Assembly (NCBI GenBank): GCA_028689775.1
Contig: JAQVCM010000019.1
Location: 1-64,000 of the forward strand
DNA from: Crocinitomicaceae bacterium
GTDB lineage: Bacteria; Bacteroidota; Bacteroidia; Flavobacteriales_D; Crocinitomicaceae
Length of the DNA: 64,000 nucleotides
Reading direction: 5' to 3'
This document shows, one piece after another, positions 12,705-27,232 of this stretch. The notes under the pieces are model-generated. The model was not told the DNA's origin, made no database searches, and saw only the letters and a list, made by a program, of their open reading frames with translations. The position numbers and the translations under genes were made by a program. How positions within the stretch are numbered: the first letter of the stretch is position 1; the number at the start of each line of letters is the position of its first letter.

Positions 12705-15700
12705 ATGAAATTTATTTTTTCTTCAAAGTCACCAGCGAGATTACAAAATTGCTTTCTTTTGATGGCAACATTCTTCATCTCTTTTACCGCATTTAACCAG
12801 TCTTTTCCAAATGCACGGGATAAATTTGTAAAGGAATTTCCGAAGTTGATGAGTGTTTCTGCCACCAACGACGACATGGATTTCATCAAAAAGAAATTGA
12901 CTCCTGCTTTGATCGAAGGAACAATGTTTTCAGATACGTATTTCAACAAAATGGTTGAAACAGCGAATTTGATGGAGGAGAAAAAAATTAAGTATTATCC
13001 AGAGATATACAATTACGTATTCAGTGTTTACTCTTTCGTAGCCAATAAACAATCGCAAGAATCATTTAATTCGTGGCACACTTCTGTCGACAACATGTTG
13101 GATGCGAAGAATGTAAATAAGTTTAAAGATTTTATTGAATTTTCTGCTTTGTTTTTCTCTGAAGGTGTTTTATCCAATTCGGCAAATTTCAGTTGGATGT
13201 ATCACGGCGGAAAATATACCTTTGAATACACCGATCAACCTTTCATTCGATTTGAAGGTGGTAATTTGAAATGCATGGTTGAGAAAACCAAAAACAGAAA
13301 AAATTACATCGACAGTATTGTAGTTTACAAGACCAGCGGAACGTATTATCCAAATGGAAAAAACTGGGTTGGGAAAGGTGGAAACATCGATTGGCAAAAG
13401 GTTGGTTTGGTGAAAGATAGAACCAGCGCAAGCTTAAAGTCTTTTACGGTAAGTATGCGAAATCCTACTTTAAAAGTTGATACGGTATCCTTGACAACAC
13501 CCTTTTTCGTCAATCCAATTTTAGGACAGTTGAATGAGAGAGCGTTTAGCATCAACCGAGAAGAAGATCGAATTTACCCGCAGTTTACATCTTTTGAAGG
13601 GAAGTTAACGATTAAAAACATCACTGAAGGAATAAATTATTCCGGCGGATTTTCCTTGAAAGGACGCGATTTTATTGGAGTTGGTTCTGCCGGTGAACCT
13701 GCGAGTTTAACGATTGCGAAAGCAGGAAAAAAATTCATCAAAGTAAATTCCCAAATGGTTATTGTAAGTCCAACAAAAGTTTACGCACCAATTGGTCAGG
13801 CAACCATTTATATTTCTCACAAAGATTCGATTTATCATCCAGGAGTAGATTTTAATTATTACATAGATACTAAAACCGCTGAATTTTCTCGTGGTAAAAC
13901 AGGTATTTCACAATCTCCATTTACCAATTCTTACCATAATTTAGACATGTACACACCTAAAATTTCGTGGGAAAAAGAAGATTCAAAAATTTACTTAACC
14001 TATGGTGTGGAAACAGGAAAAGAATTGAGAGTGACGCGTTTAGAGTCGAAAGATTATTTTGATGGTCGTTTATACGATCAATTACAAGGTTTTGAATCCA
14101 TACATCCATTGGTGTTAATCGCTAATTATTGCTATAAATACGATGAATATGTAATCACCGAAGGGAAACTAGCAACTGCCTTGGGAAAAACAATCGAACA
14201 AGCCAAACCCTTGATGTTACAATTGAGTGGACTTGGATTTATTTCCTACGATACAGATTTAAAAATGGTGGTCGTAAATGATAAAACAAAGAATTTCGTT
14301 GATGCTAAATCGGGTAAAAAAGATTTTGATAATTTGATTTTTATTTCTGATTTAAGAGTGAAATCTTTACCGAATACCGTTACTGCAGAAGAAATAAGTA
14401 AAAATAAAACCTTGCAAACGAGAGATTCCATGTTCCGTTCGATGAACAATATTCGAGGGAAGATGAAAAACTTTGGTGTTTTAGATTTGATCAGTTTAGA
14501 AATTGATTTGGGCGCTGTGGACCGCGTGGTTATTTCGGAATACAATAACACGGCTGTTTTTCCAGAAGGAAATCAAATTACGATTAGTCAAAACCGAAAT
14601 TTCAAATTCAATGGTTGGATGAATTCAGGAAAATTAGAAGTGAAAACAGACATTGCTAATTACGATTATGCCAACAACAAGATTAATTTAATTAAGACTC
14701 AAAAAGGAATTTTTAGAGTTCGGCCTTTATCGCCGAAAGATGGCGTGGATAACATTTCGTTGAGAAGTTCTTTATCGGGTGTGGTCGGTGAAATTTTAGT
14801 AGATGCGACTAATAATCGATCCGGAAACAATAAGAAAATTACAGATTTCCCTAAATTTATTGTGACCAATAAATCGAAGGTATTCTACAACGATTATTCC
14901 ATTTATAGAGGAGCTTATGATACAACTCGTTTTTACTTCACCATTGAACCTTTTCAGTTGGATAGTTTAGGTACGTTCAAAGAGAAAGATTTAAGAATGA
15001 ATGGTGAACTGGTATCAGCTGGTATTTTTCCAACTTTCAAAGAAGAGTTAAAAATTATGCCTGATTATTCTCTAGGATTTTCACGCGTAGCGCCGAAAGA
15101 TGGATATGATTTCTACTCAACGAAAGCCAAATACGAAAATAAAATTATTTTGTCTGGTAATGGTTTACAAGGAGAAGGAAAAATTGACTTTGTTCAATCC
15201 ACGTCTACTTCCAAAGCGTTTACATTTTTGCCAGATTCAACCATTGGATATGCGCAGTTTGTGAACAGACCCGTAGAGGCAGGCATTCAGTTTCCTGATA
15301 TTGAGTCTAATAATGCATTCATTTCGTATGTTCCGAAAGGGAACTTTTTGAGAGCAAGTTCAACCGAATCGTTATTGGTTTTCTTCAAAGACGAGGGGAA
15401 ATTGAATGGAACTGCCATTGTGAGTCCATCTGGAATTACTGGAAATGGAATTATGAATTTGAAAGAAGCCAATTTGAGATCTGATCATTTTAAATTTAAA
15501 AGATGGGAGGTAAATGCGGATACTTCGAACTTCAACTTGAAAAATAAATACCAACAAGAAGACGAAGAACAGCTTTCATTTAAAACTGAAAATGTAACGG
15601 CGCGCGTTTCATTCAGTGAGCGAAAAGGAATTTTTACTTCCAACAAAGGAGAATCAAAAGTAGAGTTTCCAGTGAATCAATATTTTTGTAGAATGGATAA

Positions 15701-17339
15701 GTTTACCTGGATGATGGATTCTGAAGTCATCAACATAGAAAATAGTGGAAAAAGTAACATTGATATCGATGCAGGACTTGATTTGAGTAAACCAAATTTT
15801 TTCTCGTTACATCCAAAGCAAGATTCCTTGCAATTCAAATCTTCCAAAGCGACATTTAGTTTGAAAGACCGAGCAATTTATTGTTCAAGTGTTGAATACA
15901 TTGATGTAGCCGATGCTCGTATTTATCCAGATCAGAAGAAATTGACCATCTTCAAAAAAGCATACATGGAACCTTTGGCAAATTCAAAGATTGTATCCAA
16001 TTACATTACGAAATACCATACGTTTATCAATGCAAGTACGATTATTACAGCTCGTAGAGCATACACATCATCTGGTGATTATCCGTATTACGGAGCAGAT
16101 AGTACCAAATTTATCATCAAAATGGATAAAATTGGATTGGATCCAACCTACCAAACCATTTCGTCGGGAAAAATTGCAGATGTTGATGGATTTAAATTAA
16201 GTCCACAATTTGATTATTATGGTGCGGTTAGTATTCAGGCAACCAATCCAACGATTACCTTTACTGGAGCAACAAGAATTAATCATAACTGTGATAAGTT
16301 TCCAAGAAGTTGGATGGCATTTAGCTCTGAAATAGATCCTAAAAACATTCAAATTCCAGTATCCAATTCAATGAAAACCTTAGAAGGTATTCCAATTTCT
16401 GCGGGTATTGTTTGGAGAGATTCGAGAGATGCAGACAGTATCAAACTCTATCCAACGTTCCTATCTACCTTGGAAAGTGCGAAAGATCCAATCTTAATCA
16501 CCGCTTCTGGATTGTTGCAGTATAATGCACAAGCAAAAGAATTTCAAATTGGTTCTGCTGAAAAATTAGCGAATCGAAGTGAAAAAGGAAACTTCATTGC
16601 TTTGCATACGGGAAGTTGTTCGATGAACGGTGAAGGTGCGATTGATTTGGGAATGAATTACGGTTCGGTAAAAGTAGATGCCATCGGCGTTGCGAATTAT
16701 AACCAAGCAACCGGATTGACAACTTTAAATTTAACGGCTCGATTTAATTTCCCTGTCAATGAAGGGATTTTTGAACGTTTGGGTGCGAAGATTGCGGCCA
16801 ACGACGAGTTGAGAGCGTTGGATTTCAACTCTTCAACGTTATCGCAAGCAATTACAGAATGGAAAGATTTGAAAACTGCTGAAAGTATTAAAAATGAGTT
16901 CATTCAAAAAGGAGAAGTGAAAAGAATGCCGAAAGAGTTTGAACAAAGTATTGTGATCACTGGAATCAGGTTGAAATCATACAACCAAAATCAATCCAGC
17001 GGTTTGATTACGACGACCGAAACAGCTTCGATTGTAAACATGTATGGAAGGCCAGTTTACAAACAAGTTCCGTTAAAGGCATTCTTCAAACAGGTTTATT
17101 CGGATAACATCAGTGGAGATCGATTGAGTTTATTCATGGGAATTCCTGGTATGGCAGATTATTTCTTTGATTACGGAATGACCAAAAACGATGGACTTTT
17201 GAAAATCTATACAGGCGATGCAGATTTGAACAATGCGGTGAACGAAATCAAGGAGGATAAACGTAAATCTAAAAACTTTAAGTACGAAATTTCAACCAAT
17301 AGTGGTTTGATGAGTATCTTTAAACAATTATTTCAGTAA
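12705..17339 (+). CDS. Very large exported beta-rich protein of unknown function
   Basis: The 1544-residue product starts with a signal peptide (hydrophobic core LLMATFFISFTAF, cleavage after about residue 33) and has no other clear membrane helix. Residues about 35-165 look helical. The rest is dominated by alternating beta-strand patterns and lacks cysteine pairs. A recurring glycine phrase of the type G-x-G-x-I-(D/N)-(F/L) occurs at about residues 820 (GLQGEGKIDF), 910 (GITGNGIMNL) and 1308 (NGEGAIDLGM), suggesting a repeated fold. I do not recognise a family. It ends 10 bases before plsY. A periplasmic or outer-membrane-facing location is inferred only from the signal peptide. Confidence 0.8.
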   Translation: MKFIFSSKSPARLQNCFLLMATFFISFTAFNQSFPNARDKFVKEFPKLMSVSATNDDMDFIKKKLTPALIEGTMFSDTYFNKMVETANLMEEKKIKYYPEIYNYVFSVYSFVANKQSQESFNSWHTSVDNMLDAKNVNKFKDFIEFSALFFSEGVLSNSANFSWMYHGGKYTFEYTDQPFIRFEGGNLKCMVEKTKNRKNYIDSIVVYKTSGTYYPNGKNWVGKGGNIDWQKVGLVKDRTSASLKSFTVSMRNPTLKVDTVSLTTPFFVNPILGQLNERAFSINREEDRIYPQFTSFEGKLTIKNITEGINYSGGFSLKGRDFIGVGSAGEPASLTIAKAGKKFIKVNSQMVIVSPTKVYAPIGQATIYISHKDSIYHPGVDFNYYIDTKTAEFSRGKTGISQSPFTNSYHNLDMYTPKISWEKEDSKIYLTYGVETGKELRVTRLESKDYFDGRLYDQLQGFESIHPLVLIANYCYKYDEYVITEGKLATALGKTIEQAKPLMLQLSGLGFISYDTDLKMVVVNDKTKNFVDAKSGKKDFDNLIFISDLRVKSLPNTVTAEEISKNKTLQTRDSMFRSMNNIRGKMKNFGVLDLISLEIDLGAVDRVVISEYNNTAVFPEGNQITISQNRNFKFNGWMNSGKLEVKTDIANYDYANNKINLIKTQKGIFRVRPLSPKDGVDNISLRSSLSGVVGEILVDATNNRSGNNKKITDFPKFIVTNKSKVFYNDYSIYRGAYDTTRFYFTIEPFQLDSLGTFKEKDLRMNGELVSAGIFPTFKEELKIMPDYSLGFSRVAPKDGYDFYSTKAKYENKIILSGNGLQGEGKIDFVQSTSTSKAFTFLPDSTIGYAQFVNRPVEAGIQFPDIESNNAFISYVPKGNFLRASSTESLLVFFKDEGKLNGTAIVSPSGITGNGIMNLKEANLRSDHFKFKRWEVNADTSNFNLKNKYQQEDEEQLSFKTENVTARVSFSERKGIFTSNKGESKVEFPVNQYFCRMDKFTWMMDSEVINIENSGKSNIDIDAGLDLSKPNFFSLHPKQDSLQFKSSKATFSLKDRAIYCSSVEYIDVADARIYPDQKKLTIFKKAYMEPLANSKIVSNYITKYHTFINASTIITARRAYTSSGDYPYYGADSTKFIIKMDKIGLDPTYQTISSGKIADVDGFKLSPQFDYYGAVSIQATNPTITFTGATRINHNCDKFPRSWMAFSSEIDPKNIQIPVSNSMKTLEGIPISAGIVWRDSRDADSIKLYPTFLSTLESAKDPILITASGLLQYNAQAKEFQIGSAEKLANRSEKGNFIALHTGSCSMNGEGAIDLGMNYGSVKVDAIGVANYNQATGLTTLNLTARFNFPVNEGIFERLGAKIAANDELRALDFNSSTLSQAITEWKDLKTAESIKNEFIQKGEVKRMPKEFEQSIVITGIRLKSYNQNQSSGLITTTETASIVNMYGRPVYKQVPLKAFFKQVYSDNISGDRLSLFMGIPGMADYFFDYGMTKNDGLLKIYTGDADLNNAVNEIKEDKRKSKNFKYEISTNSGLMSIFKQLFQ

Positions 17340-17349
17340 AAAGTAAAAG

Positions 17350-17970
17350 ATGGATTTTATTATTTTTGGACTAGTTGCGTATATCTTGGGTTCCATTCCT
17401 ACATCGGTTTGGATTGGAAAGGCATATTATGATTTAGATATTCGCGAGCACGGTAGCTGCAACGCTGGCGCTACCAACACCTTTAGAGTCTTGGGCAAAA
17501 AACCAGGAATCATTGTTTTGTTGATTGATGTTGCCAAAGGATCCTTGGCAGTTTTGTTACCTTATTTCATTTTAGGGTCACGTATAGACGAGGAGCGATT
17601 GGTTTTGATTCAAATTTTAACGGCGATTATGGCGGTTGTGGGTCACGTTTTTCCTTTGTTTGCCAATTTTGATGGAGGCAAAGGAGTGGCAACTTCTTTG
17701 GGAGTGATCATTGGTTTGCATCCGCCAGCAGCATTGCTTTGTTTGGTTTCGTTTTTAATCGTTTTTATCGTTTCTAAATATGTTTCATTGGGAGCAATTG
17801 TTGCTTCTTTTATGTTTCCTGTTTTAATTAATCTCGTCTTTCAGGTTGAGTCATTTTGGCTCCGGCTATTTTCAGTAATTCTTGCGGCATTGGTTATCAT
17901 CACTCATAAAAAAAATATTCGGCGAATTTTAAAAGGAGAAGAAAGTAAAATGAACCTTTTTAAAAAATAA
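17350..17970 (+). CDS. plsY: Glycerol-3-phosphate acyltransferase PlsY
   Basis: PlsY transfers an acyl group from acyl phosphate to glycerol 3-phosphate, the first step of phospholipid synthesis, in the inner membrane. The 206 residues show five or so hydrophobic helices and the three family motifs: GSIPTSVWIGK, HGSCNAGATNTFRVLGKKPG and GHVFPLFANFDGGKGVATSLG. The gene starts 10 bases after the giant upstream gene and is followed after 50 bases by another giant gene, so it sits inside a probable transcription unit with both. Confidence 0.94.
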   Translation: MDFIIFGLVAYILGSIPTSVWIGKAYYDLDIREHGSCNAGATNTFRVLGKKPGIIVLLIDVAKGSLAVLLPYFILGSRIDEERLVLIQILTAIMAVVGHVFPLFANFDGGKGVATSLGVIIGLHPPAALLCLVSFLIVFIVSKYVSLGAIVASFMFPVLINLVFQVESFWLRLFSVILAALVIITHKKNIRRILKGEESKMNLFKK

Positions 17971-18020: not shown

Positions 18021-21000
18021 TTGGTTAAAAGAGGTCTCTATATTTTAATATTTGCAATCTCTTTTTTTGAGGTTGATTTATTATTTGCTCAAGGTTCAGA
18101 ACTTGATATCAGTAAAAAAGGTTCTAAGCTTTTTAGCACGGAACAGTACGTTGCAGCAACGCCATTATATCTCCAACTGTTAGCGCTTCAACCGAGAAGT
18201 ACAGAATATAATTATAAGTATGGAGCTTGTTTGTTGTACAATTCAACCAATCGAAAAACCGCGATAAAATATTTAGACTTTGCGACTACCAAGCCAGATG
18301 CGCATCCAGATGCATTTTATTTCATGGGAAAAGCATATCATTTGAATTATCAATTTGAAAAGGCAATTTCATTTTATCAAGAATATAAAGTAAGATCCAA
18401 AAAAGATTTCAACCCATCGTGGGAAGTTGACCGTCAAATTCAATCTTGTAAAAATGGCTTGAGTTTATTGAGAAATGTTTCCGACATCGTTGTTTTTGAG
18501 AAAAAATCAGTTTTGGAAGCTTCCTTTTACAATGCCTATGACTTAGCGAATATTGGTGGTGATATTTTAATTTCGGATTCTGACCAAAGTAAAGTCGATA
18601 AGAAAAAAGGTCATCGACCGCTTATTTTTTTTCCAAAGGAAGCGAAACGGGTTTATTTTGGAAGTTATGGTGAATCAGAAGCAAGTGGAACAGACATTTA
18701 CTACAAGGAGAAAAATCCAGACGGTACATGGTCGAAGCCAACCTTGGTTCAAGGTGGAGTGAATTCTGATTTTGATGAAGATTATCCGTACATGGATGTA
18801 CAAAGTGGTTATTTGTATTTCAGTTCAAAAGGCCACAACAGCATGGGTGGTTTTGATATTTTTAAAGCCAAATACAACGAAGCGACCAATACATTTGGAA
18901 AACCTGAAAATTTAGATTTTGCAGTTTCTTCAACCGACAACGACATGTTGTATATCAAGGATGATTCTGGAGAATTTGCTTGGTTTGCTTCTTCTCGTCA
19001 GAGTAAGGATGGAAAAATGGACGTTTACAAAGTGAAAATCGAACGTGTTGGATCGCCAATCGCAGCAGCATCTGGTGCTTTCAATTCCATTGTAAGACCT
19101 CAAAATAAATCGTTCAACATCGAGGTGAAGGAAGTTAGTTCCAATAAAATCATCGGGACTTTTTATTCAGATGAAAAAGGATTTTATTTGATTAGTTTTC
19201 CTAAAAGTGGAAAATATGAATATGCCGTAAGTATCTTTGGTTCACCGCATCCTTTCAAACAGATTGTGGATGTTCCGAATAATAACGATGTCACTTTATT
19301 AAAACAACAAATTGTCCATTTGGTGAAAGGTGGTCAAGAAATGATCGAAATCATTAACGTGGATGATGGGAATGTTGCGGATAGATCGGCGATCCTTGCG
19401 GATGTAATGAATGCGAAGGCTGAATTAAATCCAAATGCGACACTTTTTAATTCTACCAAAGTTGAAAAACCTGCGGAAGTTGAAAATGCTTTGGTTGATT
19501 TGGGGATGAATAAAATGTCCGCCGAGGAAGCTGTTAACAATACACAGGATTTGATCGCAAATTACAAGTATGAAAAGGCAAATGCGGAAGCACTGCAGCA
19601 AAAGTCACTTCATCTGATTGCCAATAATGCCAAGCAAATTGATCTAATTCAGCAAGAATTAAAGAAGGACGTTGAGAAAACAGAAAGTAATTTACCGGAA
19701 GCAGAAAAAGTAGTTGTTTTAAAACAAGCGGCAGCCAAAGTAAATAAGATTAGTGAATTGGATACGACCAACAAAGAATTGTTGAACTATGCAAATTCAC
19801 TTCAAAAAACCTTGGATGCGTTGAAACTTTCCAGTACGGATTTGACTGAACTGCAACAAAAACTACAAAATGCACAAGAAGAAGGCGATGATCTTGCTTA
19901 CCAGGAGATTGCGCACAATGCTGCCTTGATTCGTGCGTTGCAAGAGCAAAGTAAAAAGAGCAACAAAGAGAACTTGCAAGCTGATATTGCCAAATTGGAA
20001 GCAGCACAACAGAAAGACAAAGAGATGATCAAAATGTATCAGACGAATGTGAATGTGTTGGACAAAGAACTCAAAATATTAGCGGATAATAAAGCAACAG
20101 CGAAAGGAACAAAGGCAACAGACATTCAAACTGAAATTGATTCGAAAAAGAACGAATTGGAATTGATTCAAAATGAAATTAAGAAGAATCAAGAGAAAGA
20201 AAGACAGAAACAAGTGGAGTTGAACACGAAATTTTTGCAAGTTTCACTCAACAGATTGGTAAGTGAACAAGAAAAGCCAAAAACGCGTCAGTCGCTTGCA
20301 AACGTTGAACATCAAGTAAAAAACCAAAATGTTGCGGAGTTAAATACCTTGAAAACGTATGTCAACCAACAAATTGGTTCTAAAAACATTGCAACGAATT
20401 CGGAAACGCAAAATCAGAAAACGGAAGTGAAATCGAATCCTGAATTGGCTGCGAGTTCTCCACAAACTGAAAGAACAACTAATTCAGAATCAAAAACGGA
20501 AAAACCGGTTCAAGAGTCTAATCAAATCCCTGCCGAGGAGAAAACGAAAGCACCAGAAAACTTTGGTTTGACACATCAAACGGAACTTGCTAAAATTCAA
20601 GCTAACAGCGCATTGACTCCAAAACAAAAAGGAGAAGCCATCTTGAAAGCTGAAATTGAATTGCAGACAAAATTAGATGCCAGTTTAGCTGAAACGAATA
20701 AGGTTCTGAGTACAAATCCTGCCGATGAAAAAGCGAAAGAACAGGTGGCAACTTTGAAAAAGGAGAAAGTTGAAAGCGAAAAACGGCTTGCAGAGCAAAC
20801 AGTGCTTTTAGTGAATGCAGAAGCAAAGCAAATGAATCCTGAAAACTTGCTTTCTAAAGTGGACGCAAATTATGTAAAAGACATTCAAGCGATTGAAAAT
20901 GCAAGCAGTAAAACGAAAGTGAATGACCTGATTGATCGTGAAAATCAAGTTCAAACGCTTTTGAAAAAACAAATTGCGACGAATACAGCTGCCAGCAATC

Positions 21001-24000
21001 AGACGAACGGTATTTCTTTACAAGCAGAAAATCAAGTCATCAACAAGTTGATTGAAACTTCTGAAAAGCGTGTAAAATCATTAGAAACGCAAGCTGAAAA
21101 TGAGTTGGCGAATGCTGCTTCTCAAGGTGTAGAAAACAATGCTCAAAAAGATGCATTTAGGAACCGTGTTTTGGCGACCAATGTGGGCTTATTGAAAAGT
21201 GATTTTAATTCAGATACCGAATTAAATAAACAACAAAATGTATTGAATGAATATTTGAAAGCACTTGAAACGAGACTGGAAGACTTGAGAACACAAGATC
21301 GAACCAATCCGCCTCCAGGAATTTCAAATGACATCGATTGGACCGTTTCTGAACTGGACTTGGTAGAAAAGAAACTAGCGTCTGTTTCTAATAAATTAAT
21401 TTCTTTAAAAGATGTTGCAAAAGCGGAAGCGAACAAGGTTGAAGCGACCAAGGTTGAAGAAAAGCAAGTGAAAACTGTTGAACCAAAAGAAATGGCTGCA
21501 GCAGAAAACACACCAGCAAGTACTCAAACACCAGCATCAAGTAAAAGTGCAGCTCCAATTGGAGAATTTAGATCTCGAATCTTAGCTGAAAAAGCAAGTT
21601 TACTAACCAGTCAATTGAGCTCAGAAATCCAAATTACGGAACAACAAAAAGAATTAAAGAATTACCAAGATGCTTTGGAAAGTAGATTGGTCGAGTTAAG
21701 CGAGCAAGAAAAAATAAATTCAACGCCAGAACTTCAAAAAGAATTGAATTGGACAATGGATGAATTGGAAACGGTTGAAGAAAAATTGACATCGGTTTCT
21801 AAGCAATTGATTGCTCTGAATGCACTTGCCAATAAAGAAGATCAAAAGAACCAAACAGTTCAAAATCAAGCGTCACTTGCTGATAAAACCCCTGTGAAAA
21901 CAGCAATAAATGTTGAATCCGATTCCGTAAATCAAGCTAAAAATGCAATTGCAAACAATTCCGTTCCAAGTGAAAAGACTGCGGACTTAAATGCATTTCG
22001 AACAGAAAAACTAGGTGGGAAAACCAATTTATTGACCAGTGAATTGAACTCCGAAGTACAGTTATCAGAACAACAAAAAGGATTAACGGACTATTTAGAA
22101 GCCTTGGAAGATCGATTAAGCGATTTGAGAGTTGAAGAGAAGACGAATGCTTCGCCAGCACTTCAAGCGGATTTGAATTGGACATTGGATGAATTAGACA
22201 AGGTTGAAGCGAAGTTAACTTCTGTCTCTGCGAAATTAAATGCCTTCGACGATGTTGCGAACACAGAAGTTCAAGAACCAGAAAGTAACAAGCAAGATGA
22301 TACTAAAACCGAGTTAAAACCAGATCTGGAAGCTGCTCAGCAAGCAAATCTTCAAGCTGAAGTGAAAACCAATGTAGGTGAGCCAAAAGCCGAAATCAAA
22401 CCAGTAGAAAAAGTAGAAAAAACAAAAGAGCCAATAAAAGCGATTGCCCAAAAAGATGCGTTCCGAACGGAAGTGTTAGCTGGAAATGTCAATCTTCTGA
22501 CCAGTGATTTTTCCTCTGAAACACAATTGACAAAGCAACAAAACGAATTGATTAACTATTTGGATGCATTGGAAAGTAGGTTGGTTGATTTGCGCGTGGA
22601 AGAAAATACAAGTTCTACACCAGCTCTTCAAGCAGATTTGAAATGGACGTTGGCTGAATTGCAGACAGTCGAAGCTAAATTAGGTTCTGTTTCTAAGAAA
22701 TTAATTGCCATTGCGGATGTTGCCAACACAGAAGTTCCAGCCAGCGAAATTATCAAACAGGAAGTTGTGAAAACTGAGGTAAAACCAGAACTTGAAGTAG
22801 CTGCAGAAGCTAAGCTTCAAGCTGAAGTGAGCGCCAATGTTGTTGAGCCTTTAGCTGAAAATAAACCGGTTGAAGAAATAGAAAAAACAAAAGCTCCAGT
22901 TGAAAATGTTTCTTCAGAAAATGCTTTTAGAACGAGAGTCTTGGCAGAAAATGCGAACTTATTGACGCTTGATTTATCTTCAGAAACACAATTAACGGAG
23001 CAACAAGATAAATTAACTGATTACCTCGACGCATTAGAAAGCAGGTTGGTGGAAGTGAGAGTGAAAGATAAAAAGAATTCAACGCCACAAACCCAAAAAG
23101 ACTTGGATTGGACCTTGGATGAATTGGAAGCAGTTGAAGAAAAATTAGCATCAGTTTCTAGTCAATTAATCGAATTGCACGAAAATGAGCTTGTAGAAGC
23201 AGCGTCGAACGAAATCGCGCAAGTTGAAACTCAAAAACCTGAAACTCAAAAACAAGAGGTGAATAAAACAGAAGTTAAAACAGCTCCTGAAGTGAAAGTA
23301 GTGCCAGAAGAAAAGGCAAGACCTGAAATTAAAACCAAAGTTGAAACTGAAACTGCAAATCAAACTGTAAACCAAGCAGAAACAAAAACTCCTGCAACAG
23401 TTCCAACTGAGAATACAGCACAAAAAGATGCTTTCCGTAAACGAGTTTTAGCGGGTAATGCTAATTTATTAACCAGTGAATTTAATTCAGAAACGCTTTT
23501 AACACAGCAACAAAATGAGTTGAATGATTACCAAGAAGCATTGGACAATCGTTTGATAGAATTAAGAAATCAAGAGCAAATCAATGCAAGTCCAGCGACT
23601 CAGAGCGACATCAATTGGACATTGGAGGAATTGAAAATGGTGGATGGAAAACTGAAATCAGTTGCGAATAAAATGAATTCATTGAAAGAAGTTGCCAATG
23701 CGGAAGTTCAAGGATCGGAACAAACAATTGATAAATCTGAAGCGCAAGCGGAAGAAAAGGAAACAAACATTTCAACTGAAAACTTGGTTACATTAAATCC
23801 AAAAGTGGAGATTCAGGAAATAAAATCGGTAAAAACGGTTCAACAATTAAATAGAGAAAATCAGCAAACTGCAGCCGTTTTAAAACTCAGCCCAGGATTT
23901 GCGAATGAGCTTTTATTGAAAAGCATCGAAACTAAAAACAATAAATTAACGCAGGAAGCAACTGATATTGCTAAAATCAAGGACAATGAGTTGAAATCAA

Positions 24001-26153
24001 AAATGTTGACCAAGTTGTATCAAGAACAATTAGTTGTTAAAGAGCAATTGGCAGAATTGGAGCGCGATCAGTCGTATGCTGAAGTAACTCAATCTTCTAA
24101 AAATAGTGCTAATTTAAAAGTGAGTGAACTGGAAACCGTTTCGAAATTGGAAAACAAACAACGTCGTTTCTATGTTGAAATTGGTGAATTAACGTCCGTT
24201 ACGGAAGAACTAGAAAAGGACATTGCTAAATTGAACAAACGAAAAGCAAAGCCATTGATTCTTGAATTAAATGAAAAACAAGAATTATTAGCTGTCACAA
24301 AATCTGCTTTGATCGAAGTAGAAAAAGAACTAGCTGTTCGTAAAACAAAGATGCCAGAACTTGTTAATGCCGCGATTGCTTTGAAGCAACCGATCACCTT
24401 AGAAACAGAAAACAATGTTGCTAGAAGTCAAGACTACAAACAGATTCAAGCGAGCTATAAAGAAATTGTAGAAGTGAATTCTGAAATCAAAAAAGTTCAA
24501 GCACAGGTAGAAGCGAAACGAAAAGAAATTGAAACGGTAATCAACAAAAGTCAAGTTTCAGAACAAAGATTACCGCTTGCTTTTGTAGAACAAAAATTGG
24601 CTGAAGTGATTGCCTTGAATGAATCTATTCCTGCAATTGAGCAAAAAAGAAATGGATTACAAGAAACGTTTAATCAAAATTTAAATCAAGCTGAAAATAC
24701 GGAATTAATTCAAAACTTATTGGTTCGTGGTGTTGCTTCGATCACCGAGATCAAACCTAAAACAATTCCGTTCAAAGAATTTAAAATCATTCCACAGCAA
24801 GAACAAGCTGCTCGACAAGTCATTGTTTTAGATGAAGCAAAAACTTCAGGATTACTTTACCGTGTTCAAGTTGGAGCGTTCTCAAAACCGATTAACGAAA
24901 ACTTATTTACCGAGTTTACACCCGTTTCAGGTGAGAAATTGAACAATGGAATTACCCGATACATGGTTGGTTATTTCTTCAAAAGAGATGTTTTACAAAC
25001 CGCTTTAGATAAGATTAAGAAAATTGGTTATGCAGACGCTTTTCCTGTTGCATACTGCGATGGAGAACGTATTTCAATTGCTGAGGCAAGACGTTTAGAA
25101 GAAGCAGGATTGTGCTTGCCAAAAGGATTGGATCAACTGGAAATCGAAGTGATTGAAACTGAAGAATCTCCTTTGGCAAATCAAACTGTTCGAACAAATA
25201 CAGATGTTGAAATGGCAAATACAAATGCTGTTCAAGCCATTCCAAATGCAGCAAAAGAAAGCTTAGCAGCATACAACAAAGCACCTGGAGCAGCAGTTGC
25301 AGATGCGGTTGAAACTCGTTTAGGATTGTTCTTTACCGTTCAAGTAGGTGTATTTAATAAACCAGTTCCTGCTAGCCAGTTATTCGACATCGAACCACTG
25401 ATTACACAACGTTTGGAAAACGGACAAGTACGTTATTCTACAGGTATTTTCCATACCATTGCAGAAACGAAACCGAAGAAAGAAGAAGCTATTGTTTTGG
25501 GAATAGCTGATGCTTTTGTGACGGCTTACTACCAAGGAAATCGAATTTCTATTCAAGAGGCATTGGAATTATTGAAAGTGAAAGACCAATCTATTTTAGA
25601 GCCGGTAAAAGTGGTTGAAAATAAAGTGCTGACCGAAGAACAATTGCTAGTCGTTGAGCAGCAAAAAATGGAAGAAGAGGAAATTAAAATTGAAAAAGTA
25701 AAGGATAATTTAGAAAATTCAAATGCGAAAGTTCAATTGGTTTCTAAAAAACAATTTGAGACATTTCCCTTGGATGAAATCAAAAGATACAATCAAAAAG
25801 GTGAATTTTATTACGACGCACAAGATAAAAGAGTGAAATCAATTATCTACAATGCTCCGGATATGCCATCTATTTATGGGTTTAGAAATGAAATGGATAC
25901 CTTGTTGATTCGCAAGAAAAGCAGACAAGAAGTTTCAGAGGAATTGGTTTTGACGGTTACCTATCAGCAAAAAAGTTTGCCAGGAAACATTGGTGATTGG
26001 TTACTTCGTTTTGGTTATTTGAGAGAAGTGAAAGTGATGAACGACCAGATTCAACTGACGGTTTATGGAATAAATGATCCAATTGACTACGAATTTGTAT
26101 TGAGTGATTTGCAATCTCTTGGATTTGTTCAAGTTCCCAAGAAACAAGAGTAA
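18021..26153 (+). CDS. Giant exported protein: TPR - PD40 - six coiled-coil repeats - two SPOR-like domains
   Basis: The 2710-residue product begins at a TTG (18021); this is the only nearby start that keeps the signal peptide YILIFAISFFEVDLLFAQ. In order: TPR-like helices (about 30-150), a PD40 beta-propeller region (about 190-340: GTDIYYKEKNPDGTWSKP, YLYFSSKGHNSMGGFDIF), a short carboxypeptidase-regulatory-like beta domain (about 360-420), a long coiled coil, and six related 90-residue units starting near 1044, 1181, 1324, 1479, 1634 and 1803, joined by E/K/A/V-rich linkers. More coiled coil follows, then two SPOR-like modules (about 2276-2367 and 2434-2523: YRVQVGAFSKP, FTVQVGVFNKP) and a C-terminal region. 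TPR-PD40 is shared with OmpA-type and gliding/secretion-linked proteins, but no OmpA peptidoglycan domain is seen; the SPOR-like pair could bind cell wall instead. Role unknown. Confidence 0.85.
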   Translation: MVKRGLYILIFAISFFEVDLLFAQGSELDISKKGSKLFSTEQYVAATPLYLQLLALQPRSTEYNYKYGACLLYNSTNRKTAIKYLDFATTKPDAHPDAFYFMGKAYHLNYQFEKAISFYQEYKVRSKKDFNPSWEVDRQIQSCKNGLSLLRNVSDIVVFEKKSVLEASFYNAYDLANIGGDILISDSDQSKVDKKKGHRPLIFFPKEAKRVYFGSYGESEASGTDIYYKEKNPDGTWSKPTLVQGGVNSDFDEDYPYMDVQSGYLYFSSKGHNSMGGFDIFKAKYNEATNTFGKPENLDFAVSSTDNDMLYIKDDSGEFAWFASSRQSKDGKMDVYKVKIERVGSPIAAASGAFNSIVRPQNKSFNIEVKEVSSNKIIGTFYSDEKGFYLISFPKSGKYEYAVSIFGSPHPFKQIVDVPNNNDVTLLKQQIVHLVKGGQEMIEIINVDDGNVADRSAILADVMNAKAELNPNATLFNSTKVEKPAEVENALVDLGMNKMSAEEAVNNTQDLIANYKYEKANAEALQQKSLHLIANNAKQIDLIQQELKKDVEKTESNLPEAEKVVVLKQAAAKVNKISELDTTNKELLNYANSLQKTLDALKLSSTDLTELQQKLQNAQEEGDDLAYQEIAHNAALIRALQEQSKKSNKENLQADIAKLEAAQQKDKEMIKMYQTNVNVLDKELKILADNKATAKGTKATDIQTEIDSKKNELELIQNEIKKNQEKERQKQVELNTKFLQVSLNRLVSEQEKPKTRQSLANVEHQVKNQNVAELNTLKTYVNQQIGSKNIATNSETQNQKTEVKSNPELAASSPQTERTTNSESKTEKPVQESNQIPAEEKTKAPENFGLTHQTELAKIQANSALTPKQKGEAILKAEIELQTKLDASLAETNKVLSTNPADEKAKEQVATLKKEKVESEKRLAEQTVLLVNAEAKQMNPENLLSKVDANYVKDIQAIENASSKTKVNDLIDRENQVQTLLKKQIATNTAASNQTNGISLQAENQVINKLIETSEKRVKSLETQAENELANAASQGVENNAQKDAFRNRVLATNVGLLKSDFNSDTELNKQQNVLNEYLKALETRLEDLRTQDRTNPPPGISNDIDWTVSELDLVEKKLASVSNKLISLKDVAKAEANKVEATKVEEKQVKTVEPKEMAAAENTPASTQTPASSKSAAPIGEFRSRILAEKASLLTSQLSSEIQITEQQKELKNYQDALESRLVELSEQEKINSTPELQKELNWTMDELETVEEKLTSVSKQLIALNALANKEDQKNQTVQNQASLADKTPVKTAINVESDSVNQAKNAIANNSVPSEKTADLNAFRTEKLGGKTNLLTSELNSEVQLSEQQKGLTDYLEALEDRLSDLRVEEKTNASPALQADLNWTLDELDKVEAKLTSVSAKLNAFDDVANTEVQEPESNKQDDTKTELKPDLEAAQQANLQAEVKTNVGEPKAEIKPVEKVEKTKEPIKAIAQKDAFRTEVLAGNVNLLTSDFSSETQLTKQQNELINYLDALESRLVDLRVEENTSSTPALQADLKWTLAELQTVEAKLGSVSKKLIAIADVANTEVPASEIIKQEVVKTEVKPELEVAAEAKLQAEVSANVVEPLAENKPVEEIEKTKAPVENVSSENAFRTRVLAENANLLTLDLSSETQLTEQQDKLTDYLDALESRLVEVRVKDKKNSTPQTQKDLDWTLDELEAVEEKLASVSSQLIELHENELVEAASNEIAQVETQKPETQKQEVNKTEVKTAPEVKVVPEEKARPEIKTKVETETANQTVNQAETKTPATVPTENTAQKDAFRKRVLAGNANLLTSEFNSETLLTQQQNELNDYQEALDNRLIELRNQEQINASPATQSDINWTLEELKMVDGKLKSVANKMNSLKEVANAEVQGSEQTIDKSEAQAEEKETNISTENLVTLNPKVEIQEIKSVKTVQQLNRENQQTAAVLKLSPGFANELLLKSIETKNNKLTQEATDIAKIKDNELKSKMLTKLYQEQLVVKEQLAELERDQSYAEVTQSSKNSANLKVSELETVSKLENKQRRFYVEIGELTSVTEELEKDIAKLNKRKAKPLILELNEKQELLAVTKSALIEVEKELAVRKTKMPELVNAAIALKQPITLETENNVARSQDYKQIQASYKEIVEVNSEIKKVQAQVEAKRKEIETVINKSQVSEQRLPLAFVEQKLAEVIALNESIPAIEQKRNGLQETFNQNLNQAENTELIQNLLVRGVASITEIKPKTIPFKEFKIIPQQEQAARQVIVLDEAKTSGLLYRVQVGAFSKPINENLFTEFTPVSGEKLNNGITRYMVGYFFKRDVLQTALDKIKKIGYADAFPVAYCDGERISIAEARRLEEAGLCLPKGLDQLEIEVIETEESPLANQTVRTNTDVEMANTNAVQAIPNAAKESLAAYNKAPGAAVADAVETRLGLFFTVQVGVFNKPVPASQLFDIEPLITQRLENGQVRYSTGIFHTIAETKPKKEEAIVLGIADAFVTAYYQGNRISIQEALELLKVKDQSILEPVKVVENKVLTEEQLLVVEQQKMEEEEIKIEKVKDNLENSNAKVQLVSKKQFETFPLDEIKRYNQKGEFYYDAQDKRVKSIIYNAPDMPSIYGFRNEMDTLLIRKKSRQEVSEELVLTVTYQQKSLPGNIGDWLLRFGYLREVKVMNDQIQLTVYGINDPIDYEFVLSDLQSLGFVQVPKKQE
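21150..23710 (+). repeat. Six 90-residue coiled-coil repeats inside the giant protein gene
   Basis: Each unit starts FR-x3-L, then NLLTS-(D/E)-(F/L)-x-SE, EQQ-x2-L-x2-Y-x-(D/E)-ALE-x-RL, LNWTL-x-EL-x2-VE-x-KL and SVS-x-KL. Unit starts in DNA are 21150, 21561, 21990, 22455, 22920 and 23427. Start-to-start distances are 137, 143, 155, 155 and 169 residues; only the linkers vary. The linkers after units 3 and 4 are also alike, which points to a recent duplication of a whole 155-residue block. Confidence 0.88.
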
Positions 26154-26170: not shown

Positions 26171-26668
26171 ATGAAAATTCCATCTCTGAGTGTCATCAAA
26201 AAAGAAATGTCTCATCTTCGCCAAGACGAACTGATTGAGGTATTGACAACGTTGGCAAAATACAGCAAGGAAAATAAAGAGTTACTCAATTACTTGTTGT
26301 TTGAGGCAGATTTTGAATCGAATTACATCGAAAAAATCAAAGTTGAATTGGATGAACAATTTGCAGAACTTCGCGTTTATCATCCACATTTACTTAAAAA
26401 ACAATTGCAGAAAATCGCTCGAATCTTGAAAAAGAACATCAAGTATTCAGGAATCAAACAAACCGAAATTGAATTGTTGATTTACTTCTGTCTGAAAATG
26501 ATCGAAGTGAAAGTGAATTTTCATCGGTATACGGTGATGATTAATTTATTGAAACGACAATTTGCAAGAATTCAAAAGGTAATCGGTGAATTGGACGAAG
26601 ATCTACAAAACGATTACAATCGGGAAGTGGATTTGATTCAAGAATATGTTGGAGTGGAAGCGGATTAA
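26171..26668 (+). CDS. Small helical protein of unknown function
   Basis: The 165 residues are predicted by eye to be almost entirely alpha-helical and highly charged, with no signal peptide, membrane helix or catalytic motif. It has a leucine/lysine-rich centre (LLKKQLQKIARILKKNIKY) and an acidic C-terminus. I do not recognise a family; the N-terminal DELIEVLTTLAKYSKENKELLNYL resembles helical-repeat segments. It follows the giant SPOR protein by 17 bases and ends 6 bases before the stop of the convergent methyltransferase gene. Confidence 0.7.
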   Translation: MKIPSLSVIKKEMSHLRQDELIEVLTTLAKYSKENKELLNYLLFEADFESNYIEKIKVELDEQFAELRVYHPHLLKKQLQKIARILKKNIKYSGIKQTEIELLIYFCLKMIEVKVNFHRYTVMINLLKRQFARIQKVIGELDEDLQNDYNREVDLIQEYVGVEAD

Positions 26669-26674
26669 TTGCTG

Positions 26675-27232
26675 CTACTTCGAACACGTATAGATAAACG
26701 CAGGAGGAAAGTTCAGTGGTGTAAACATGATATCGGTTTCATTAAACTGAGTTTCCAAAATCTTCTTACAATTCAAGGAATACTGAAATTGAATAAATTT
26801 ACCATCATTTTTCAAGCAATGATGTGCCGATTTCAAAATAGATTCTCTTAAATTCTTAGGAAAATTACTCAAAGGTAAAGAAGAAATCACATAATCTGCA
26901 TCTAAGAATCCAGCATCATTTAAGAATTTCTGAATGAATTCTGCACTGTTGTGAATTAAAATCAATCGGTCATCTTGAATTTCATCTTGTAGTCGTTCAT
27001 AAAATTGATCGTTCAATTCAAAAACAAGTAATTTTGCATCTTCGTGCATTTGCTCCAAGATTTTACGCGTAAAAACTCCTGTTCCTGGACCAAGTTCAAC
27101 GATGACACGAGCCTTTTGAAAGTCTACATTTTGCAACATTTTTTTGGCTAAATATCTCGAACTCGGAATCATAGAGCCGACCATTTTTTTCTCTGACCAA
27201 AATTGTTTTAAAAAGTAAGTCTTCTTAGACAT
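26675..27232 (-). CDS. PmtA-like / rRNA-dimethylase-fold SAM methyltransferase
   Basis: A 185-residue cytoplasmic methyltransferase. The N-terminus MSKKTYFLKQFWSEKKMVGSMIPSSRYLAKKM is typical of the group that includes bacterial phosphatidylethanolamine N-methyltransferase PmtA. Motif I follows as VIVELGPGTGVFTRKIL, then an acidic strand 2 (LLVFELNDQF) and YVISSLPLSNFP in the position of the catalytic loop. Family knowledge suggests a lipid or small substrate; an rRNA target is unlikely because the RNA-binding C-terminal part of KsgA is missing. The exact substrate is unknown. Confidence 0.78.
   Translation of the reverse strand: MSKKTYFLKQFWSEKKMVGSMIPSSRYLAKKMLQNVDFQKARVIVELGPGTGVFTRKILEQMHEDAKLLVFELNDQFYERLQDEIQDDRLILIHNSAEFIQKFLNDAGFLDADYVISSLPLSNFPKNLRESILKSAHHCLKNDGKFIQFQYSLNCKKILETQFNETDIMFTPLNFPPAFIYTCSK

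Follow-up and report, generated by a model that had tools for sequence, protein, structure and literature searches.

A giant TPR-PD40 protein with a C-terminal pair of SPOR domains and its family in the Bacteroidia

The window analyzed here, a stretch of 64,000 nucleotides from a Crocinitomicaceae bacterium, encodes on the + strand a giant protein of 2710 aa (18021..26153), in which a TPR region, a PD40 propeller, and a carboxypeptidase-regulatory-like domain (CRD) are followed by a long spacer and a pair of SPOR domains. The giant belongs to a widespread, unannotated family of envelope proteins of the Bacteroidia, in which the SPOR pair takes the place of the usual OmpA wall anchor. An earlier note, made from the sequence of this window alone, had described the architecture and proposed a role for it; the observation is confirmed and the interpretation is partly supported.

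Gene, family, and N-terminal block

The open reading frame is intact, with a TTG start at 18021 and a stop at 26153, and it is considered a real gene because orthologs with matching N- and C-terminal parts were found in dozens of genomes. A frame or assembly artefact was ruled out by orthologs from many independent assemblies. In three relatives the ortholog was divided over two frames, either inside the TPR-PD40 block or immediately behind it (L069 and L101) or in the spacer (L113), which may reflect assembly errors or true gene splits.

The C-terminal part of the giant was present in 51 of 59 relatives, and the N-terminal block was matched in all 60 sampled genomes of the order, a count that takes in other TPR-PD40 proteins. 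Named loci belonged to Crocinitomicaceae (Fluviicola, Brumimicrobium, Taishania, and Crocinitomix), Cryomorphaceae, and other Flavobacteriales. In scans of genome contigs, no match was obtained with the C-terminal 440 aa as the sole query, and loci were recovered with an alignment of orthologs. Within a class-wide sample of 149 genomes, a strong match to the SPOR pair was obtained in 85, about 55 of which had it in frames longer than 1500 aa. The architecture, which the earlier note had suggested searching for in other Flavobacteriales, is family- and order-wide, reaches other orders of the class, and is no oddity of one genome. It defines an unannotated family whose ends are conserved and whose middle is repeat-amplified and changes fast, present in most of the order and in about one third of the sampled Bacteroidia. 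A search of open-licence papers on Bacteroidetes SPOR proteins that also carry TPR or PD40 gave no account of this family.

The N-terminus carries a type I signal peptide without a lipobox (residues 1-24, 18021..18092, +), MVKRGLYILIFAISFFEVDLLFAQ, of which the cleaved part ends in LLFAQ and is followed by GSELD; the N-termini of orthologs have a similar hydrophobic segment ending in AQ, GQ, or SQ. There is no Cys at the cleavage site, so that the lipoprotein signal typical of PorE is absent, and, besides the signal peptide that is cleaved off, the giant has neither a lipid anchor nor a transmembrane segment nor a domain for membrane binding.

The TPR region (about residues 33-150, 18117..18470, +) was assigned from TPR_16 and TPR_2 matches and from TPR proteins in the PDB; similarity was weak for the window protein alone (TPR_16, E 0.004, Pfam, partial chain), and TPR_2 was matched in 26 of 30 orthologs. 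The PD40 beta-propeller region (about residues 155-345, 18483..19055, +) was not found by Pfam in the window protein by itself and was located with the NCBIfam model NF053607, which matched residues 204-339 of the full chain (E 2e-15, 56.3 bits), and with PD40 (PF07676) matches in 22 of 30 orthologs, the best at 8.6e-12. The CRD (about residues 346-432, 19056..19316, +) was assigned from a CarboxypepD_reg match (PF13620) after the propeller in 9 of 30 orthologs. The signal peptide, TPR-like start, and propeller named in the earlier note were all recovered, and the models of CHU_0125 (NF053607) and PorE (NF052230) both matched the N-terminal block in 30 of 30 orthologs. The list of domains in the earlier note missed the CRD and a third, degenerate SPOR-like domain.

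The N-terminal 409 aa scored 72.8 bits (E 2e-20) against the CHU_0125 model, most strongly over the propeller, and 50.8 bits against the PorE model; the curated full-length cut-offs of 620 and 600 bits, respectively, were not reached by the giant. From these matches, the front end of the giant is homologous to that of known TPR-PD40-OmpA proteins. CHU_0125 is a TPR-PD40-OmpA outer membrane integrity protein of Cytophaga hutchinsonii (PMC5891637). Its family shares with the giant a homologous N-terminal block, export, and a wall-anchor domain at the C-terminus, whereas the giant has SPOR domains rather than OmpA_C, a spacer of about 1830 residues, four times the length, and no lipobox.

PorE, which is thought to anchor the type IX secretion system (T9SS) to the wall (PMC7192894), has the same order of TPR, propeller, and CRD as the giant, followed by a C-terminal wall-binding domain (PMC7192894, PMC5053529). 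That proposed role and the matches of the PorE model to every ortholog examined would fit a PorE-like accessory role of the giant in type IX secretion or gliding, SPOR standing where PorE has OmpA_C. This explanation is judged quite improbable, since the score of the giant is far below the PorE cut-off, it has neither an OmpA_C domain (no OmpA match was found by Pfam) nor a lipoprotein signal, its neighbours are plsY and a conserved exported protein, U1544, and several OmpA-domain ORFs of about 700 aa in the same genome are candidates for PorE. The genome contains 14 OmpA-type matches over the cut-off, on other contigs; as it keeps many OmpA-type anchors, the giant is an additional protein and not a replacement. 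Replacement of PorE-type proteins by the giant was ruled out specifically by the OmpA-bearing ORFs of about 700 aa that remain.

C-terminal SPOR domains

Two SPOR domains were delimited at residues 2277-2361 (24849..25103, +) and 2436-2525 (25326..25595, +), in agreement with the pair that had been placed at 2276-2367 and 2434-2523 from the sequence. Neither Pfam nor NCBIfam returned a SPOR match for the full chain, and NCBIfam returned no match for the C-terminal 440 aa. The C-terminal piece matched Pfam SPOR with E 0.0039, and the window SPOR pair matched PF05036 with E 0.0011 and 19.6 bits. This single-sequence score is below the curated cut-off of 21 bits. SPOR similarity, for which a profile search had been proposed as the check, was present in all 30 orthologs (PF05036 at E<1, best 1.3e-8). 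A profile of ortholog SPOR sequences, nearly all from domain 1, found the SPOR domain of CwlC (1x60) in the PDB with E 0.0008.

An AF2 model of residues 2263-2710, based on 58 sequences (mean pLDDT 85; >90 in most domain-core residues), predicted two domains with a beta-alpha-beta-beta-alpha-beta fold, one at residues 2278-2346 and the other at 2436-2504. Alignment to the SPOR domain of RlpA (6i09) with VIA-align, counted in support of domain 1, gave Z 6.7 and an rmsd of 2.0 over 68 aligned residues with 24% identity. Foldseek and VIA-align matched CwlC and both the glycan-bound and the glycan-free RlpA SPOR structures, at Z 6.5-6.7, 2.0-2.5 A, and 24-27% identity, in a list made up mostly of unrelated ferredoxin-like folds of similar Z, so that the structural match alone is unspecific. 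At the chain end, AF2 predicted a beta-alpha-beta-beta-alpha unit (residues 2642-2705), which VIA-align matched to ferredoxin-like folds; it is listed as a third, degenerate SPOR-like fold of ferredoxin type (residues 2642-2710, 25944..26150, +).

In RlpA, the denuded glycan is contacted by Q270 and by the arginines R302, R309, and R311 (PMC6895207). Equivalent positions were assigned by HMM alignment to CwlC and by the spacing to a conserved Gly. The equivalent of Q270 is Q in 58 of 58 sequences in both domains, and that of R309 is Arg in 44 of 58 sequences for domain 1 and in 57 of 58 for domain 2. Domains 1 and 2 are assigned as SPOR on the combined basis of the ortholog matches to PF05036, the predicted fold, and the near-invariant glycan-contact residues.

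Some features of the C-terminus would suit SPOR-like domains that no longer bind the wall and act as protein-protein modules, with the giant serving as a soluble periplasmic assembly hub. Domain 2 has Val in place of RlpA A273 and Tyr or Phe in place of the Phe of RlpA, the position of R311 is not conserved, and the glycan-contact motif is absent from the third domain. The probability of this alternative is put low, given that the Q and R contacts are near-invariant in both domains and that SPOR domains turn up repeatedly at the place expected for OmpA_C.

The giant resembles established SPOR proteins (PF05036; RlpA 6i09, CwlC 1x60, and FtsN; PMC6895207) in fold, in the main glycan-contact residues, and in the C-terminal position of the domains, and it differs from them in an extra hairpin and helix past the core (NG.RIs..EA), in its sub-cut-off Pfam score, and in the fusion of SPOR to TPR-PD40 and a giant spacer. 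The proposal that the pair occupies the position usual for OmpA_C in the TPR-PD40 proteins of Bacteroidota held up, with the main contact residues of RlpA kept.

A second architecture of 770-860 aa was found in other Bacteroidia (L193-L196) and combines a predicted outer membrane barrel, called by eye from the sequence, with acidic TSP3-like repeats and three SPOR-like domains. Barrel-type TSP3 proteins usually end in OmpA_C. The arrangement in L193-L196 supports the view that one wall anchor has taken the place of another and that the purpose common to both is to anchor proteins to the wall. In L194 and L196, a further protein of at least 384-400 aa that ends in SPOR is encoded upstream of the barrel-type protein.

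Helix-rich spacer and repeat units

The middle of the giant is a helix-rich, repeat-amplified, and variable spacer of about 1830 residues (433-2262, 19317..24806, +), defined by composition, helical periodicity, and the repeats and length variation of orthologs. It is high in Glu, Leu, Lys, Ala, Asn, and Gln and low in Pro, Gly, and aromatic residues, and helical periodicity is raised across residues 431-2262 and absent at both chain ends. Six homologous units of about 90 residues, as had been noticed earlier, lie on the + strand at residues 1044-1135 (unit 1, 21150..21425), 1181-1272 (unit 2, 21561..21836), 1324-1415 (unit 3, 21990..22265), 1479-1570 (unit 4, 22455..22730), 1634-1723 (unit 5, 22920..23189), and 1803-1894 (unit 6, 23427..23702). 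Each matched a model made from the six at about 1e-44, with units 1 and 2 covered over residues 1044-1134 and 1182-1272, and pairwise identity was 40-66%; BLAST self-comparison, with masking, did not reveal the repeats. The units are spaced 137-169 aa apart, with linkers rich in Glu, Lys, and Pro. As for the coiled-coil stalk that had been proposed for this region, the units, judged from sequence, look more like helical beads with linkers between them than like one continuous coiled coil.

Among 90 other full-length orthologs searched, 20 carried the unit of the window protein, mostly as a single copy. The six-unit array is an amplification, specific to its lineage, of a unit present once in most unit-bearing relatives. 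Internal repeats of some kind were detected in 52 of 91 proteins, the window's included, by windowed local alignment with a rough threshold that a few shuffled controls also passed; the units differed between lineages. The total length of orthologs ranged from 1653 to 3623 aa. From this pattern, the spacer evolves by local amplification and duplication, and the ends remain conserved.

Stretched out in full, a helical chain of about 1830 residues would be many times as long as the periplasm is wide. Because an extended helix of this size is far longer than any periplasm, the spacer must fold back, bundle, or run sideways, and a simple stretched bridge is unlikely. The role proposed in the earlier note, a bridging of envelope layers, was accordingly not borne out, as the giant has no membrane anchor and a spacer too long if extended. 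A giant that truly spans the envelope as a bridge or ruler, its spacer stretched between the wall and a membrane, would be compatible with a long helix-rich spacer between conserved ends, but the missing membrane anchor, the excess over the periplasm, and a variation in ortholog length that is odd for a ruler make it very improbable.

Gene order and proposed function

Along the + strand of the window, U1544 (12705..17339, 1544 aa) is followed after 10 bp by plsY (17350..17970) and, after a further 50 bp, by the giant. The plsY gene, for glycerol-3-phosphate acyltransferase (PF02660 1e-56, TIGR00023), is also a neighbour in relatives. Among the 84 loci with sufficient upstream sequence (80 distinct N regions), U1544 was found upstream of the giant on the same strand in 74, with plsY between them in 53 and without it in 21, where the median gap was 56 bp. 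A gene order that merely tracks plsY was ruled out by these 21 loci. Outside the order, 54 genomes of the class had the giant, and in 24 of them U1544 was within about 12 kb of it, a hand count that is a lower bound owing to contig ends; in roughly half of these genomes, the two are not adjacent. The neighbourhood is far above chance. Of the 149 class genomes, 128 had U1544, often beside plsY.

Downstream of the giant, after 17 bp, is a 165-aa ORF (26171-26668, +), possibly a lineage-specific gene, for which neither Pfam nor NCBIfam gave a significant match and none of the fetched loci contained a homolog. An RrnaAD-type methyltransferase (26675-27232, -) follows and is also near the giant in relatives L069, L127, L130, L135, and L137.

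U1544, an exported protein conserved beside the giant, had no match in Pfam or NCBIfam. A model of residues 345-1544 (pLDDT 88, pTM 0.48, which leaves the relative placement of its parts uncertain) consisted mostly of beta structure, with a predicted Lpt-like beta-jellyroll fold. The best solved matches were LptC (6mit_C, Z 10.0), the LptD jellyroll (9.7), a second LptC (9.5), and LptA (8.1); these head the list and cover parts of the model only, and Z 7-8 is common by chance. LptD and apolipoprotein B were ranked first by Foldseek. Sequence similarity to the Lpt jellyrolls did not exceed that of shuffled controls, and U1544 is far longer than they are. Homology to OstA/LptA was rejected after hhalign profile comparison performed no better than with shuffled columns; sequence homology was likewise undetectable to the OstA_2 proteins encoded alongside U1544 in these genomes, and the genome of the window carries a separate OstA_2 protein. 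The likeness of U1544 to LptC, LptD, and LptA is thus limited to predicted fold. Strand-face alternation in the model, 2.07 against 1.61 (sd 0.24) for shuffled controls, was a slight excess and was not used as evidence.

The giant is probably a soluble, peptidoglycan-tethered scaffold of the periplasm, similar to PorE and CHU_0125, with SPOR replacing OmpA_C, no lipid anchor, and U1544 as the prime candidate for a protein that it docks. It would be exported by Sec, lose its signal peptide, and remain in the periplasm, where the C-terminal SPOR domains would tether it to peptidoglycan strands from which the peptides have been removed, and it would probably be enriched at the division site or at places of wall turnover. 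The N-terminal TPR, propeller, and CRD block may, like that of PorE and CHU_0125, serve to dock proteins of the envelope, and the helical spacer would set the reach and valence between the two ends. On account of gene order, U1544 is the likeliest client, and the two may form a wall-anchored envelope assembly. A more specific proposal, regarded as unlikely, is a Bacteroidia-specific envelope machine in which U1544 is a long Lpt/AsmA-type beta-groove that moves phospholipid or LPS across the periplasm and the giant fixes this conduit on the wall; the position of U1544 beside plsY in many lineages is offered in its support.

Gene order ties the giant family to a class-wide exported protein of about 1500 aa with a predicted lipid-bridge-like fold. 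The giant and U1544 are thus testable targets for how Bacteroidia may link outer membrane, wall, and lipid supply.
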